The notes under the pieces are model-generated. The model was not told where the DNA came from. It worked only from the letters and a program-made list of their open reading frames with translations, and made no database searches. From Candidatus Zixiibacteriota bacterium (GTDB lineage: Bacteria > Zixibacteria > MSB-5A5 > WJJR01), in assembly GCA_036397555.1 (NCBI GenBank), contig DASWIS010000008.1, positions 734,501 through 798,500 on the forward strand: a stretch of 64,000 nt of DNA. Reading direction: 5' to 3'. Shown piece by piece: positions 44,431 to 52,596 of this stretch (positions within the stretch are counted from its first letter, which is position 1; every line of letters begins with the position of its first letter). The position numbers and the translations under genes are program-made.

Positions 44431-45396
44431 ATGATCGTGACTCACGTCTACCAAGCTGATCATGGCGTCGTCCGCCGCGAGGGAATCGAGCCGTTCGACG
44501 AACTCATCAAGAATCCGGAAGTCGTCTTCTGGGTCGATTTTCTGCGCCCGGCCGATGAGGAGTCGTATGTCCTGACCGGCGACTTCGGATTCCATCCGCT
44601 GGCCATCGAGGATGCCATCGGCGAGGAAGCCGGCCCCAAAGTCGATGATTACGACAGCTACCTGTTCGTCGATTTTCGCATCGCCGACTATGAAGTAGCC
44701 GCCGGCCTTCGCGTCCAGGCCGTGCACGTGTTTCTCCTGCGCAATGGCGTCGTGACCGTCCGCGATGAGGCGATTCGTCCGCTCGATGCGGTCGCCCGAC
44801 GCTGCCGCACCGAGGAACGCATCCTCTCGCGCGGAGCCGATTTCTTCCTGCACACGCTGCTGGACCACATGGTCGATCATTACGATGTCACGATGGAGAA
44901 AATCGAAGACGAGGTCGACCGCGTCGAGGATGAGGTGTTCCGGGACGCCGACGATGCGATCGTCCGCCGCGTGTTCAACCTCAAGCGCGATCTGTCGCAT
45001 CTGAAACGCGTCGTGACGCCCCTCCGCGAGATGCTCGACCGATTCTCCCGTTCCCGTTTCCCGCTGATCGGCTCGAAGGCGCGCGTGTACTACCGCGACG
45101 TGTTCGACCACATGCAGCGCATCAACGAATTGGCCGACTCCTTTCGCGACACGCTCAATTCCGTGCTGGAGGTCTATTTCTCGACCGTGCAATCGAAGAC
45201 CAACGAGACGATCAAGGTGTTGACGATCATCTCGACGATCCTTTTGCCGTTGACATTCCTGACGGGTCTGTATGGAATGAATTTTGCCCGTATGCCCGAG
45301 CTCCACTGGGTCCATGGCTACAAGTTCTTCTGGGGGATCACCATCACGGTCGTCGTCGGAATGTTGTGGTTTTTCAAACGGCGCAAGTGGATTTAG
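44431..45396 (+). CDS. corA: CorA-family magnesium/cobalt transporter
   Basis: Pentameric divalent-cation channel of the cytoplasmic membrane. The 321-residue protein has a large acidic cytoplasmic domain (about 1-250) with a long helix rich in Glu/Asp/Arg (KIEDEVDRVEDEVFRD), then two C-terminal membrane helices joined by the signature YGMNF and a short basic end (KRRKW). The ATG follows CCGGAG eight bases upstream. The bshC gene starts 75 bases after it. Confidence 0.96.
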   Translation: MIVTHVYQADHGVVRREGIEPFDELIKNPEVVFWVDFLRPADEESYVLTGDFGFHPLAIEDAIGEEAGPKVDDYDSYLFVDFRIADYEVAAGLRVQAVHVFLLRNGVVTVRDEAIRPLDAVARRCRTEERILSRGADFFLHTLLDHMVDHYDVTMEKIEDEVDRVEDEVFRDADDAIVRRVFNLKRDLSHLKRVVTPLREMLDRFSRSRFPLIGSKARVYYRDVFDHMQRINELADSFRDTLNSVLEVYFSTVQSKTNETIKVLTIISTILLPLTFLTGLYGMNFARMPELHWVHGYKFFWGITITVVVGMLWFFKRRKWI

Positions 45397-45470
45397 CGGC
45401 GGACCGCCGGGAACTCGCGGACGCCGATTATATTTACGACTGGATTTCGTATGAACTGCCGTCAGCACCG

Positions 45471-47111
45471 ATGATGACCGCCGATCCGATCCATACCGGC
45501 AAGATTGCGGGACGCAAGCGTCTCTACCTCGATACCCTTTACGATCCCGATCGCACCGGCCGATTCTTCCAGTGGCCGCATCCGTCGCCCGAGGCGTTCA
45601 TCTCTTGTGCACGACGGGTCACGTGCAACGACACAGTCGACCGCGCACGGATTACGAGACTCCTGCTCCGTCAGAATGAAGCGCTCGACGCACCCGGTGC
45701 GGCCCTCGACAATGCGCGCAAGCTCGCCGATCCGAAGTCCGTGTGTGTGTTCACCGGGCAGCAGGCGGGGCTGCTGGGGGGACCGTTGTACACGCAATAC
45801 AAGGCACTGGCGGTCATCGGCTGGGCGGCCCAACTTGAGAAGCAGTTGGGACGGCCGGTTGTCCCGGTATTCTGGATGGCGGCCGACGACCACGACTTCG
45901 AAGAAATCCGCTGGACCGCGTTCCCTGATACTCAAAACGACGTGCAGCGTCTGCAACTCGATGTGCCCGGCCTGCCCGAGCGCACCCCCGCCTCTCAGAT
46001 CACGCTCGGCGATGACATCCATCGTGTCCTGAACGAATTGCAATCATTACAGCTCAAAACGGAGTTCAGCGACTCGGTTACAACTGCGCTCCACGAGGAT
46101 TACACGCCCTCGCGCACGATGGTCGAGGCATTTGGGCGTTGGATGACGCGCATGCTGGGTCCGCTGGGGCTGGTGATGTTCGATCCGTCTGATCCCGAAG
46201 CCAAATCGCTCTCCGCGCCGTTGGTAGCGGAAGAACTGCGCGGCCCCGACGACACCGCCTCGGCGCTCGCCGACATCGGCTATCGCCTCGAGGAAGCGGG
46301 GTATCACAAGCAGGTGGCGCATCCCGACGGGCACACGCACCTGTTTTACATTGCCGAGGGACGGCACGCGTTGCGGTTTGCCAACGGCCGGCTCTGGACC
46401 GATCCCGAAGGCGGAGACCGGGCGCGCCCGAGCGGCGAGTGGGTCTCAATTCTCGAACGGAATGCGACCGCCTTTTCGCCGGGCGTGCTCTTCCGCCCTG
46501 TGGTTCAGTCGTATCTGTTTCCGGTCGTCGCGGCGGTGTGCGGCCCGTCGGAGATCGCCTATTGGGCGCAGGCGCGCAGCTTGTTCGACCGCTTCGATCT
46601 GACCATGCCGGTTGTGCTGCCACGCGTGTCCGCGACGATCACCGAAAGCAAAACCGTGCGCGCGGTTCAATCCCTCGGGCATCATGTCGCCGACTTCTTC
46701 GGTGACATCGAAGCGCTGATCAACCGGCACTTCGAGCAGTCGTTCCCGCAGGATTTGGAATCACGATTCGCCGATGAACGCGCCGCGTGGCGCCGGCGTC
46801 TGGACGAACTCAAAATGACGGTCTCGACGTTCGAGCCGACGCTGGAAAAGTCATTCGACGTCGGTGCGGGCCGGATTCTTTCGATGCTGGAACAGCTTGA
46901 GAAAAAAGCGTTTCAGGCGCACAAGCGAAAGGGCGAAGAGATTCGCGCCAAGTTTTACAAGTTGGCCGCACACCTGTATCCGGAGGGCCAGCCCCAGGAA
47001 CGTATCTTCGGGATCGCCTACTATCTCAACAAGTACGGCTTCGGGGCCATCGAACGCATTCGCAGGCAACTGCGTACCGACACGCCGGACCACCAGCTCC
47101 TCGTGCCATAG
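45471..47111 (+). CDS. bshC: Bacillithiol synthesis protein BshC (putative cysteine ligase)
   Basis: Last-step enzyme of bacillithiol synthesis, adding cysteine to glucosaminyl-malate. The protein of about 546 residues carries the BshC core near residues 95-145 (VFTGQQAGLLGGPLYTQYKA then PVFWMAADDHDFEE), the AEGRHALRF region and a long C-terminal coiled coil (about 430-500, with KKAFQAHKRKGEEIRAKF). ATG 45471 or 45474 fits the family length; the frame also extends upstream into corA. It is followed 12 bases later by bshA. Cysteine transfer by BshC rests mainly on genetics. Confidence 0.93.
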   Translation: MMTADPIHTGKIAGRKRLYLDTLYDPDRTGRFFQWPHPSPEAFISCARRVTCNDTVDRARITRLLLRQNEALDAPGAALDNARKLADPKSVCVFTGQQAGLLGGPLYTQYKALAVIGWAAQLEKQLGRPVVPVFWMAADDHDFEEIRWTAFPDTQNDVQRLQLDVPGLPERTPASQITLGDDIHRVLNELQSLQLKTEFSDSVTTALHEDYTPSRTMVEAFGRWMTRMLGPLGLVMFDPSDPEAKSLSAPLVAEELRGPDDTASALADIGYRLEEAGYHKQVAHPDGHTHLFYIAEGRHALRFANGRLWTDPEGGDRARPSGEWVSILERNATAFSPGVLFRPVVQSYLFPVVAAVCGPSEIAYWAQARSLFDRFDLTMPVVLPRVSATITESKTVRAVQSLGHHVADFFGDIEALINRHFEQSFPQDLESRFADERAAWRRRLDELKMTVSTFEPTLEKSFDVGAGRILSMLEQLEKKAFQAHKRKGEEIRAKFYKLAAHLYPEGQPQERIFGIAYYLNKYGFGAIERIRRQLRTDTPDHQLLVP

Positions 47112-47122
47112 CCGCCACGCCG

Positions 47123-48274
47123 ATGCCCGCCTCCGATTCAGCTTCCCGCCCGCTTAAGATCGCGATCACCTGCTATCCCGTGCCGGGCGGTTCGGGCATC
47201 CTCGCCACCGAACTGGGTGTCCGTTTGGCCGCGCGCGGCCACGAAGTCCACTTCATCAGCAGCGCGTTGCCGTACCGTCTCGAACAGCTCAATGCCGCGC
47301 TGTACTTTCATCAGGTGGTCACACCGAGCTACCCGCTGTTCGAGCACGCACCGTACACTCTGTCGCTGGCGTCGAAGATGATCGAGGTCGCCCAGCGTGA
47401 AACGCTGGACGTCCTCCATGTCCACTACGCGATTCCGCATGCCGTGTCCGGGTATCTCGCGCGGCAGGCGATGGGGCCGACGGCGCCGCGCGTGCTCTGC
47501 ACGCTCCATGGCACCGATATCACGCTGGTCGGGTCGGACCGCTCGTTCTGGGAGATCACGCGGTTCGCCATCGACGCTGTCGATGGGGTGACCGCTGTAT
47601 CCCGGTTCTTGAAGGATAAGACCGTCAGCGTCTTCGGCACGCAGCGTCACATCGAAGTCATCCGCAATTTCGTCGACACGTCACGCTTCTACCCGCGCGC
47701 GGCCGATTTATGCCGTCAACGGTTCGCCGATCCCGGCGAGAAAATCGTCGCGCACCTCTCGAATTTCCGTCCGGTCAAGAATGTAACCGGCGTGGTCCAG
47801 ATGTTCGCCCAGGCGAGTCGGACCGTCCCCTCTCGGCTGCTCATGATCGGCGATGGGCCGCAGACCGCGGATGCGACCGCAGTGGCGCAGGCGCTCGGCG
47901 TTGCCGACAAGGTCTCGTTTCTGGGCAATCGTGAAGACATCGCCGACATACTCTGCGCCGCCGATGCCTTCCTGCTGCCGTCGCACTATGAGGCATTCGG
48001 ATTGGCGGCTCTCGAAGCGATGGCGTGCGGCGTGCCGGTGGTTGCCTCGCGCGTCGGGGGTGTTCCCGAACTCATTGAGGATGGCAAGACCGGTTTCCTG
48101 GTCGACCCGGATGATTATGTCGGCGGCAGCGAACGTCTCTCCGCGATTCTGACAGACAAGAATCTCCATGAGTCGTTGCGGGCCGGCGGCCTGCAGCATG
48201 TCAGGGACAACTTCACCGCCGATGCGGTCGTGCCGCTGTATGAGGACATGTACCGGCGACTCCTGAGGCAATGA
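47123..48274 (+). CDS. bshA: N-acetylglucosaminyl-malate synthase BshA
   Basis: GT4-family glycosyltransferase for the first step of bacillithiol synthesis: UDP-GlcNAc plus L-malate. The 383-residue protein has [21 protein letters not shown], the BshA-type start loop, then [26 protein letters not shown], and the donor-binding [20 protein letters not shown] motif near 290. In close relatives the same loop distinguishes BshA from other GT4 enzymes. Length is normal. bshB1 follows, making the set complete in order C-A-B. Confidence 0.95.
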
Positions 48275-48382
48275 AGACCACGAACACCTGATGTCGGTCC
48301 CTCCGCTGGACGCATCGGGTGGGGACAAAGCACCGACACGATGACCAACAGCTCCAATAGACGGAGAATTCGCGGAGACCAT

Positions 48383-49114
48383 ATGACCAACGAGCAGAAC
48401 ACCACCGTCGACGCATTGGCCCTGGCGGCGCACCGCGACGACATCGAAATCACCTGCGGCGGACTCTTAATCAAGCTGGCCGACAAGGGATACCGTACCG
48501 GCATCGTCGATTTCACGGCGGGGGAGATGGGCACACGCGGCAGCGCTGCCGAACGCGAGGCCGAGGCGGTTGCGGCAGCACAGATCATGAATGTCGCTCA
48601 CCGAGAGAATCTCAACATGCCCGATGCCCGGCTCGACAATACGCTGGAGAATCGCCTGATGGTCGCCGACGTTCTTCGACGCCTGAGGCCGAAGTTGGTC
48701 ATCCTTCCCCATTGGGAACAGCGCCATCCCGACCATCGTGTCGCGGGGGCGATCGCCTACGACGCCTGTTTCCTGGCCGGACTCAAGAAGCTCGATCTGC
48801 CCGGCGAACCGCACCGTCCCCACAAAATCCTCTACACGGCGTTCTTTCGTCAGCCGCCGTATTCGTTCATCATCGACATTACCCAGCAATTTGAGCGCAA
48901 GAATCACGCGGTGGCGGCCTACGCGACCCAATTCGGCACGCGCGAGCAGGGTACACGCGAAATCTATGCCCCGGGGATCAGCATCTATGATCTCATGGAC
49001 ACCGAGGCGCAGCAACTCGGACGGCTGATACGCAAACGCCACGCCGAGGCGTATGTGATCAAGGAAGCAATGGAAGTCGACGATCCGCTGACGATGAGCG
49101 TCGCGTCGATTTGA
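48383..49114 (+). CDS. bshB1: Bacillithiol deacetylase BshB1-type
   Basis: Zinc-dependent de-N-acetylase (LmbE/PIG-L fold) that removes the acetyl group from GlcNAc-malate. The 243-residue protein has AAHRDDIEITCGG, GEMGTRGSAAEREAEA, and RHPDHRVAGAIAYDACFLAGL. The usual HPDD zinc motif reads HRDD; the ligand His and second Asp are kept. ATG 48383 follows CGGAGA and matches the family start; the frame extends up to 48341. The N terminus before the motif is slightly longer than usual. Confidence 0.93.
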   Translation: MTNEQNTTVDALALAAHRDDIEITCGGLLIKLADKGYRTGIVDFTAGEMGTRGSAAEREAEAVAAAQIMNVAHRENLNMPDARLDNTLENRLMVADVLRRLRPKLVILPHWEQRHPDHRVAGAIAYDACFLAGLKKLDLPGEPHRPHKILYTAFFRQPPYSFIIDITQQFERKNHAVAAYATQFGTREQGTREIYAPGISIYDLMDTEAQQLGRLIRKRHAEAYVIKEAMEVDDPLTMSVASI

Positions 49115-49188: not shown

Positions 49189-49284
49189 GGAAGAGGATTC
49201 GGTCTGGTGGCCGGCGCGGACTTCAAATCCGTAGGCGACTTCGCAGACGCGAGGGCGCGGTGGGTTCGATTCCCACCCCTTCCG
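49189..49284 (+). tRNA. selC: tRNA-Sec (anticodon UCA)
   Basis: Selenocysteine tRNA of 96 nt with the bacterial layout. The 6-bp D stem TCGGTC/GGCCGG has a four-base loop; the anticodon loop is CTTCAAA with TCA at 49223-49225; a long variable arm includes CTTCGC/GCGAGG (49239-49254) capped by AGAC; the T arm is GTGGG-TTCGATT-CCCAC; discriminator G. CCA is not encoded. The acceptor 5' strand GGAAGAGG meets only seven 3' bases (CCCTTCC), with A49194 mismatched or bulged, so acceptor plus T stem is 12 pairs, not the usual 13. selA follows after 38 bases. Confidence 0.93.
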
Positions 49285-49322: not shown

Positions 49323-50678
49323 ATGTCTGCCCGCCCCCCCTCTGTCGAAGTGCTGGTTTCCAACGAGCGGCTTGCCGATCTCGTCAGTCAACACGGACGC
49401 CCGATCATCACAGACCACGTGCGCGCCGTCCTCTCCGGTGTGCGGCGGCAACAGAATTCCCCGACCGATTGGCCCAATGTTGATGAACTGATTGATGCTG
49501 TCCGGACGCGCGCCGAGACTCCATTCGGATTGCAGCGTGTCATCAATGCCACCGGCGTCCTGCTGCACACCAATCTCGGACGCGCACCGTGGAGCCGTTT
49601 CATGGTCGATCAGATTGCCGAACGTCTCGCCGGGTATGTCACGCTCGAATACGATCTCGAGAGCGGGACACGCGGCGTGCGTGGTGCGACAGTGGAAGCC
49701 GGGCTGGCCGCGTTGGCCGGTGCCGAGGGTGCGCTGATCGTAAATAACAATGCCGCGGCAGTGTATCTGGCACTCACGACCCTGGCCTGGAATCGCGAAG
49801 TCGTCATTTCGCGCGGTGAACTCGTGCAGATCGGCGGCGGATTTCGCATCCCTGAGGTGCTGGCGCGCAGCGGCGCCGTCCTGCACGAAGTCGGTACGAC
49901 CAACAAGACTTCACTGCGCGACTACGAAGCCGCCTGTGGACCGCAGACCGGTTTGATTCTGAAGGTCCACCGGTCCAACTTCGTGCAGAAGGGTTTTGTG
50001 GAAGAGGTTTCTGCGTCCGATCTGGCCGCGCTGGGAAAGCGTAAGTCCCTCCCGGTCGTGTGGGATATCGGTTCGGGAGCCGTCGACGGCGTCGATGTTC
50101 CCGCTCTCTCCGGCGAACCGACGCTCCGCGATGCCGTGGCCAGTGGAGTGCATCTTGCGACCGGTTCGGGCGACAAATTGCTCGGCGGTCCCCAGGGAGG
50201 TCTGATCCTGGGGGAATCGGATTTGATCAAACGTCTCCGTGCCGACCCGCTCTATCGAGCATTTCGGCCGGGGAAGGCCACGTTGCTCGCGCTGGAATAC
50301 ATCGTAGCGGCGCACCGCAGCGGGCGCGCCGGGCAACTGATCCCGTTGTATCAGCTCGCGGCAGTGACGGCACACGAGCTGCAGCGCCGTGCCGAACGAT
50401 TGGCCGCCGTCGCGAATGAATTCGGATGGATGTCGAAAGCGGTCACGACGAACGACACATTCGGCGGCGGCGCGGCCCCGGAAGCCGTGCTGCCGGGATG
50501 GGGACTTCGTCTTACGGGTCGAGCGTCGGCCGACGCCCTGGAGGCACGCGCGCGGGCACACACCCCGCCGATCGTCGGGACCATCACAGATGGCGCGCTT
50601 GTTTTCTCACTGCGCACGGTACTTGCCGGCGAGGACGCGGAAATCGAGCACTTCCTTCAGGTGGCATCGACCAGGTAA
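49323..50678 (+). CDS. selA: L-seryl-tRNA(Sec) selenium transferase
   Basis: PLP enzyme turning seryl-tRNA(Sec) into selenocysteyl-tRNA(Sec) with selenophosphate. The protein of about 451 residues has NATGVLLHTNLGRAP, the PLP lysine in GSGDKLLGGPQGG (about Lys285), and RADPLYRAFRPGK. The N-terminal about 85 residues match the tRNA-binding domain style of SelA. Possible starts are GTG 49311, ATG 49314 and ATG 49323; no ribosome binding site separates them. It lies between selC and selB. Confidence 0.96.
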   Translation: MSARPPSVEVLVSNERLADLVSQHGRPIITDHVRAVLSGVRRQQNSPTDWPNVDELIDAVRTRAETPFGLQRVINATGVLLHTNLGRAPWSRFMVDQIAERLAGYVTLEYDLESGTRGVRGATVEAGLAALAGAEGALIVNNNAAAVYLALTTLAWNREVVISRGELVQIGGGFRIPEVLARSGAVLHEVGTTNKTSLRDYEAACGPQTGLILKVHRSNFVQKGFVEEVSASDLAALGKRKSLPVVWDIGSGAVDGVDVPALSGEPTLRDAVASGVHLATGSGDKLLGGPQGGLILGESDLIKRLRADPLYRAFRPGKATLLALEYIVAAHRSGRAGQLIPLYQLAAVTAHELQRRAERLAAVANEFGWMSKAVTTNDTFGGGAAPEAVLPGWGLRLTGRASADALEARARAHTPPIVGTITDGALVFSLRTVLAGEDAEIEHFLQVASTR

Positions 50679-50709: not shown

Positions 50710-52596
50710 ATGTTTGTAATGGGAACCGCCGGCCATGTCGATCATGGCAAATCGACACTGGTCAAGGTGCTGACCGGGATCGACCCCGACCGCCTGCCCG
50801 AAGAGAAAGAGCGCGGCCTGACCATTGATCTGGGCTTTGCCTGGATGACCACACCATCGGGACGCAGTATCGGCATCGTCGATGTGCCCGGTCACGAACG
50901 CTTTATCCGCAACATGATCGCCGGTGTCGGCGCGATCGACTTCGTCCTGTTGGTCATCGCCGCCGACGACGGATGGATGCCGCAAACTTCGGAGCATCTG
51001 GCCATTCTCGAATACATGGGAATCGAGTGCGGGATTGTGGCGCTCACCAAGTGCGATACGGTCGAACGCGATTGGCTGTATCTGGTGCAAACCGACATCG
51101 CCGCGCGACTGAAGCCGTCCGCCCTGGAATCGGCTCCGATCGTTCCGGTCGATTCGATTTCGGGACATGGGTTGGACGATCTGCGCGCCGCCATCGATGC
51201 GCTGGCCGGATCGCTGTCGCCGCGCCGCGACATCGGCCGTCCGCGGTTATACATCGATCGCGTCTTTGCGATGACCGGACGCGGCGTCGTCGTCACGGGC
51301 ACCCTGATCGACGGCGCACTGCAGGCGGGCCAACAGATCACGATCGCACCGGAGAGTTTCGGCGCCCGCATACGCGACCTGCAGATCCACAAGCAATCGG
51401 TCGCGCGCGCTCAGGCGGGTCATCGCGTGGCGGTCAATCTGTCGGGCGTCGAACGCGCGCAAATGCGCCGGGGACAGTGCCTGGTCGCGAACGACGACAC
51501 CGATACGTACGATCGCTTGTGGGCGGACGTCAGCGTGTGGGCCGACTCCGTCTCGCCATTGGAAACCGGACGCCAGGTGCTGGTGCTGTTGGGAACGTCC
51601 GAAACTGAAGCGTCCGCATTCCCGCTCGATACGGAGCAGATCGCGCCCGGATCGGTCGCGCTGTGCGAACTGCGATTGAAGGAAGCGATTACTGTGCGTC
51701 TGCTCGATCACTTCGTCCTGCGCTGGCCGACGCCGCAGGTCACCGTGGGCGGCGGGACCGTGCTGGATCTCGGCGGAGACAAGCGGATGCGCCGTCAGGA
51801 GCGATTCATCGCGGGATTGCAGCGACGACGTGATCGGAGTCTGATGACGTTTCTTGAGACGGATCTCCAGCGGATGGGATACGTCGCGCACAATGAAGTA
51901 TTGAGAACCGGATTGTGGACCCGCGATCAAATCGCGCAGGGGCTGGATGACTTGATTGCTGCCGGTGCCGTGCAAGATCACGGCGGGCTCCTGTTTTGGT
52001 CCCAACAGTTCGGAACATGGTCGGACGCTATGAAACAGACGCTCGCTGACACGCTCGCGCAACATCCGTACCTCCCCGGCCTCAACCTGAGCGAGTGGGC
52101 AAATCGTGCGCGCGTACCGGCGCCAGCGGCCGAGAAGATCGCGTCGGCCATGCTGGCAAGCGGAGCTGCGAAGCGTAACGCCGAAGTGTTTAGTCTGTCG
52201 GGCCATCAGCAGGCATTGCCGCGGGAATGGGCAGGTGATGAATCGCGGCTGTGGCAATCGCTGTGCGACGGCGGCGCGCAGCCGCCGACGCGCCCCGATC
52301 TTGAAGCGCAATCGCCGCACGCACGGGCGATCATCCAGTACTGGATCGACACCGGCCGCGTGATCAACCTGTCCGATGGGGTGATCTTCCCGTCGGAGTC
52401 GTTCGATGCGATCAGGCAACAAGTCATCGGAGCGCTGCAGTCCGAGGGCGCGCTGACGGCCGGGACGCTCCGTGATCTGTTGGGCACGACGCGAAAGTAT
52501 GCCGTCCCCATTGGCGAGCAATTGGACCGCGAGGGGCTGACCCGACGCGAAGGCGACACGCGCGTGTTGGTCAGGTGCGAGGGAGTATCACGGTGA
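50710..52596 (+). CDS. selB: Selenocysteine-specific elongation factor SelB
   Basis: GTPase that brings Sec-tRNA(Sec) to UGA codons marked by a SECIS hairpin. The 628-residue protein has GHVDHGKS at 8-15, DVPGHERF near 58 and TKCD as guanine motif, followed by EF-Tu-like beta domains, then about 250 residues of winged-helix repeats that bind SECIS (for example [26 protein letters not shown], the last one). ATG 50710 opens the family N terminus. The frame runs on upstream inside selA in another phase. The stop overlaps the amidohydrolase start. Confidence 0.96.

Follow-up and report, generated by a model that had tools for sequence, protein, structure and literature searches.

The stretch of DNA analysed here, 64,000 nucleotides from Candidatus Zixiibacteriota and hereafter called the window, carries a selC gene for a tRNA-Sec whose acceptor/T branch has 12 base pairs. 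Our reading, to which we give a probability of about 0.85, is that this gene encodes the cell's single working tRNA-Sec and that it belongs to the bulged 7/5 class, with A49194 as bulge 5a. As judged from sequence comparison, it is fixed in the phylum and would have arisen from a 13-bp ancestor in which base 6 lost its partner on the 3' strand; it would be used with a matching lineage of SelA and SelB. A first, sequence-only reading had pointed to the departure from the normal 13 pairs (8 + 5). The shortening is real, but it is not a novelty, as 12-bp 7/5 bacterial tRNA-Sec with a bulge at 3a, 4a or 5a has already been described (Santesmasses 2017, PMC5330540), and 7/5 tRNA-Sec is known from Epsilonproteobacteria (Cravedi 2015, PMC4607533). 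What is new is the phylum-wide fixation, the proposed route from 13 to 12 pairs through loss of the base opposite position 6, and the co-inheritance of the tRNA type with the SelA/SelB lineage.

ARAGORN places a tRNA-Sec with a TCA anticodon at 49189-49284 of the forward strand, and the Rfam covariance model RF01852 matches it with 66.9 bits over its whole length (1-91 of 91; gathering cut-off 47). The usual marks of tRNA-Sec are present, namely the UCA anticodon, the 6-bp D stem with a 4-nt loop, the long variable arm and G73, in agreement with the earlier judgement that D arm, anticodon and variable arm are otherwise normal. It is the only strong tRNA-Sec of the genome; the other 13 matches score at most 47.4 bits and are presumably other tRNAs. 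A minus-strand match to RF04351 over the complement of the T arm was discarded (26.3 bits against a cut-off of 68). The gene, its parts and the two genes that follow it are:

49189..49284, + strand: selC, tRNA-Sec(UCA), G discriminator, no encoded CCA (ARAGORN, Rfam RF01852, sequence)
49189..49196, + strand: acceptor 5' strand GGAAGAGG, 8 nt (sequence; GGAAG[A/C/T]GG in 105 of 106 genomes)
49194, + strand: bulged A, position 5a, the sixth base; A, C or T in the phylum, never G (phylum comparison, pair counts, energies)
49199..49214, + strand: D arm, 6-bp stem, 4-nt loop TGGT
49221..49227, + strand: anticodon loop CTTCAAA, with the anticodon TCA at 49223-49225
49233, + strand: A; with C49215-G49234 paired it would become bulge 43a in the anticodon stem; weak (outer-pair probability 0.10)
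49235..49258, + strand: long variable arm
49260..49276, + strand: T arm GTGGG / TTCGATT / CCCAC, 5 bp
49277..49283, + strand: acceptor 3' strand CCCTTCC, 7 nt instead of 8 (sequence, relatives)
49323..50678, + strand: selA, L-seryl-tRNA(Sec) selenium transferase, open frame from 49311 (TIGR00474, 459 bits; PDB 3w1h, E=4.7e-94)
50710..52596, + strand: selB, Sec-specific elongation factor (TIGR00475, 330.8 bits; PDB 5lzb and 4zu9)

The T loop (49265-49271) is followed by CCCAC (49272-49276) and CCCTTCC (49277-49283), which together make 12 nucleotides before G49284; our re-reading gave the same count as the first one. On the 5' side, GGAAGAGG is followed by the linker AT. The branch has 7 + 5 = 12 pairs, and the 8/5, 13-bp arrangement that is canonical in bacteria is found neither in the window nor elsewhere in the phylum. 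The phylum was sampled with 133 genomes of one class, in 106 of which a tRNA-Sec was found, and all 106 selC genes were read. The acceptor 3' strand has 7 nucleotides in every one of them, and the shortened branch is therefore fixed at the level of the phylum in Candidatus Zixiibacteriota. The 5' strand is GGAAG[A/C/T]GG in 105 of the 106 genes, with C (50), A (45) or T (10) as the sixth base and never G; the 3' strand of these 105 is CCCTTCC in 99 and TCCTTCC in 6, with G73. The linker is AT in all genes but one.

The first reading would have been overturned by a sequencing error or by relatives that all had a normal 8/5 helix. Neither survives the count of 106. That one base was lost from a normal 8/5 tRNA-Sec by faulty sequencing or assembly could be argued from the genome being in 35 contigs, but an error would not recur in 106 of 106 genomes, nor leave three different bases at position 6; this explanation is ruled out, and its probability is practically negligible. 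The base that is missing is also another one than the C near 49277 that had been suggested: judged from 13-bp relatives, it is the partner of A49194.

Two selC genes of the phylum stand apart. In one (genome G113, L259:110-201), the 5' end of the acceptor is disrupted, with TGTAG for GGAAG, while the 3' strand is normal; in the other (genome G012, L258:110-198), the anticodon loop is CTTCAAC instead of CTTCAAA. Furthermore, two genomes of the window's own family, G002 and G006, the latter 88% complete, gave no tRNA-Sec match above the cut-off, which suggests that they have lost the use of Sec.

The 12 nucleotides of the 3' side can be paired with the 5' side in more than one register. A49194 had been called either mismatched to C49278 or bulged, and in both cases it is unpaired; pair counts make it bulge 5a. 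In nearest-neighbour energy, the 7/5 form with a bulged A reaches -44.0 kcal/mol and the 8/4 form with an A.C mismatch -39.4 kcal/mol, the latter including the weak 43a pair; compared like for like, the bulge form has -42.7 kcal/mol, which is 3.3 better. A form with a 5-bp acceptor and a 6-bp T stem has about the same energy as the bulge form (MFE -44.6), so that the inner two pairs cannot be assigned from energy alone and are assigned by comparison. Since the inner acceptor pairs show no covariation inside Zixiibacteriota, the bulge register rests on the comparison with Spirochaetes. This comparison covered at least 118 named genomes whose tRNA-Sec has 12 nucleotides on the 3' side. Among the matches listed, seven pairs are obtained only with the bulge at 5a in 16 of 16 Zixiibacteriota and in 10 of 14 Spirochaetes, the other four Spirochaetes giving a tie at six. 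In Spirochaetes, both bases of pair 7-67 differ between genes with A7-U67 (GGAAGCAG/CTCTTCC) and genes with G7-C67 (GGAAGAGG/CCCTTCC), which fits bulge 5a because seven pairs are kept, while the 8/4 mismatch register gives six.

The 8/4 register would have eight levels on the 5' strand, with an A6.C67 mismatch, G8-C65 and a 4-bp T stem, as in the minor 8/4 tRNA-Sec and the allo-tRNAs. It also yields 12 levels, and the window-type strands GGAAGAGG/CCCTTCC can be written in it with one mismatch (7 pairs). However, it is the weaker form by the 3.3 kcal/mol given above, it loses pairs in the Spirochaete GGAAGCAG/CTCTTCC, where bulge 5a has seven, and base 6 varies freely among A, C and T opposite an invariant C. 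We rejected it on the energies and the Spirochaete pair changes, and consider it improbable.

For other families across Bacteria, 47 distinct selC genes were parsed by script; 12 further loci were left unparsed, and the sample holds no 13-bp Spirochaete selC. The acceptor 3' strand has 8 nucleotides in 45 of the 47. The remaining two (L303 and L319) have a 7-nt 3' strand with a short, 9-nt 5' side and no bulge, like the Cloacimonetes type, and a 5a bulge was found in none of the 47. Examples of 13-bp strands in these families are GGAAGCGG/ACGCTTCC (L265) and GGAAGAGG/CCTCTTCC (L305), and taking out the base opposite position 6 turns either one into the Zixiibacteriota pattern. In an ancestral 13-bp tRNA-Sec, the 3'-strand base that faced base 6 may thus have been lost, the 5' side staying at the normal 8 + 2 nucleotides. 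Once freed, base 6 would have come to vary between A, C and T; the absence of G may reflect that it would let the helix slip.

The proteins that handle the tRNA were compared in a SelA tree of 72 sequences, which is unrooted and whose bootstrap is not fully settled; the 13-bp SelAs in it are one gene per family, a set skewed to strong matches. All 28 proteins from genomes with a bulged tRNA-Sec (13 Zixiibacteriota, 10 Spirochaetes and 5 Gammaproteobacteria) are separated by one branch (100/97) from 31 of the 13-bp type, 12 of the linker type and one of the short type. The 12 linker-type SelAs are all on another branch (100/99). A quick SelB tree has the same split, with an SH-aLRT of 94 for the bulged side (94 and 100). 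The bulged class is also marked by single residues. All 28 bulged-class SelAs have Q at position 169, where the 43 others read at that column all have E; in the window the codon is 49827-49829, in the motif RGELVQIGGGFRIP. Position 173 is G in the bulged class and mostly S elsewhere, and residues 121 and 197 differ as well. The SelB marker is W89, which all 30 bulged-class proteins have, the product of the window's selB included, and which the others lack. The relevance of the short branch to SelA and SelB, which the sequence-only reading had raised, gains strength from both trees, in which protein lineage and tRNA type are inherited together.

In the SelA tree, the Gammaproteobacteria with a bulged tRNA nest among the Spirochaetes, a placement that fits a joint transfer of the set. 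One could go further and propose co-adapted Sec lineages, in which the lineage with SelA Q169/G173 and SelB W89 works only or best with a bulged 12-bp tRNA-Sec, is common to Zixiibacteriota and Spirochaetes, was passed with its tRNA to some Gammaproteobacteria, and is distinct from the 13-bp lineage. We put this forward tentatively, at somewhat less than even odds; shared descent of the operon, vertical and horizontal, with no mutual adaptation, can also account for the co-inheritance and the markers.

The selA and selB genes lie directly after selC, forming a selC-selA-selB cluster. Directly upstream of it, bshC, bshA and bshB1, for bacillithiol synthesis, stand in a row at 45366-49114. The selD gene of the genome (L106:1396-2745, minus strand; 327 bits) has a single in-frame TGA, which when read through gives ...FARSGGUAGKIGPVD... 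We take this TGA (GGUAGKI) to be at the active-site position where SelD usually has Sec or Cys, and selD is probably itself a selenoprotein gene. Downstream of the TGA, folding gave no support for a SECIS hairpin (z -0.4). As a second Sec protein, formate dehydrogenase alpha was considered and dropped, all matches being below the cut-off and with no in-frame stop. The cluster and the in-frame TGA of selD at the active-site position make it very probable that the cell uses this tRNA, in a working Sec system.

The opposite would be a selC that has decayed or been repurposed, as a pseudogene, an opal suppressor or a regulatory RNA, with no use of Sec. The G113 copy with its broken 5' end and the two genomes with no selC match above the cut-off speak for such an outcome. 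Against it, the 93 distinct selC sequences of the phylum conserve the D stem, the anticodon, the T arm and G73, selA and selB adjoin selC, and selD needs UGA to be read as Sec. We regard it as very unlikely.

In the working system, SerRS would recognise G73 and the long variable arm when charging the tRNA, SelA would bind the 6-bp D arm and accept the shorter branch, and a SelB of the same lineage would carry tRNA-Sec to UGA. The bulge would hold the 5' strand at its usual length. In E. coli, the antideterminant pairs against EF-Tu are C7-G66, G49.U65 and C50-G64 (PMC9976931). These are missing from the window tRNA, in which the T-stem pairs are G49-C65 and U50-A64; EF-Tu rejection must then come from elsewhere, and the bulge, which may help to keep EF-Tu off, is a candidate. 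When one acceptor-stem pair is deleted from E. coli tRNA-Sec, Sec insertion and read-through are abolished (PMC6267555), yet Zixiibacteriota get by with 12 pairs throughout the phylum. SelA Q169 and G173 and SelB W89 are named residues that can be tested as the source of this tolerance. Selenoprotein production has already drawn on the SelA of Aeromonas salmonicida, a species with a 12-bp tRNA-Sec of its own (PMC6267555), and the matching lineages found here add further 12-bp SelA/tRNA pairs for selenoprotein engineering. Furthermore, a tRNA-Sec model built for 13 pairs can put the discriminator at the wrong position in a 12-bp gene (PMC5330540).

Among known systems, the window tRNA is most like the type C 5a 12-bp tRNA-Sec of PMC5330540, with which it shares the 7-nt acceptor 3' strand, the 5-bp T stem, the bulge after position 5, G73 and the location of selC beside selA/selB. 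The 47 top-scoring 12-bp candidates of that study come from Gammaproteobacteria, Clostridiales, Spirochaetes, two Alphaproteobacteria, Rubrobacter and Dehalogenimonas; Zixiibacteriota are absent from that list; in them, the type has become fixed across the phylum. A bulge at 43a, which that study describes as common and not universal, is weakly possible in the window. The Epsilonproteobacterial tRNA-Sec (PMC4607533) has the same 7/5 branch in another phylum, a likeness by description and not by sequence. The Cloacimonetes type (Mukai 2016, as cited in PMC5330540) is, as far as that citation describes it, a 7/5, 12-bp tRNA with a linker one nucleotide shorter, whereas the window gene keeps 8 + 2 nucleotides on the 5' side with a bulge. 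Aeromonas salmonicida, a Gammaproteobacterium, shares the 12-bp branch, and an Aeromonas SelA (L203) is in the same SelA group. The allo-tRNAs and 8/4 tRNA-Sec have an 8- or 9-bp acceptor and a 4- or 3-bp T stem, unlike the window selC, and the U73 discriminator of selC* tRNA-Cys (PMC7609411) is absent, the window having G49284.

The linker-type (7a) 12-bp tRNA-Sec of Alpha-, Beta- and Gammaproteobacteria has the same 7-nt acceptor 3' strand, but its extra base is in the linker, its seven pairs are straight, and its SelA and SelB form a separate group. Among the matches listed, the extra base is in the linker (7a) in most Proteobacteria and at 4a in Photobacterium and Vibrio. Three Vibrio/Photobacterium loci (L207, L211 and L220) have it at 4a (GGAATGAG/CTCTTCC), and their SelAs have the same Q marker where it was read.
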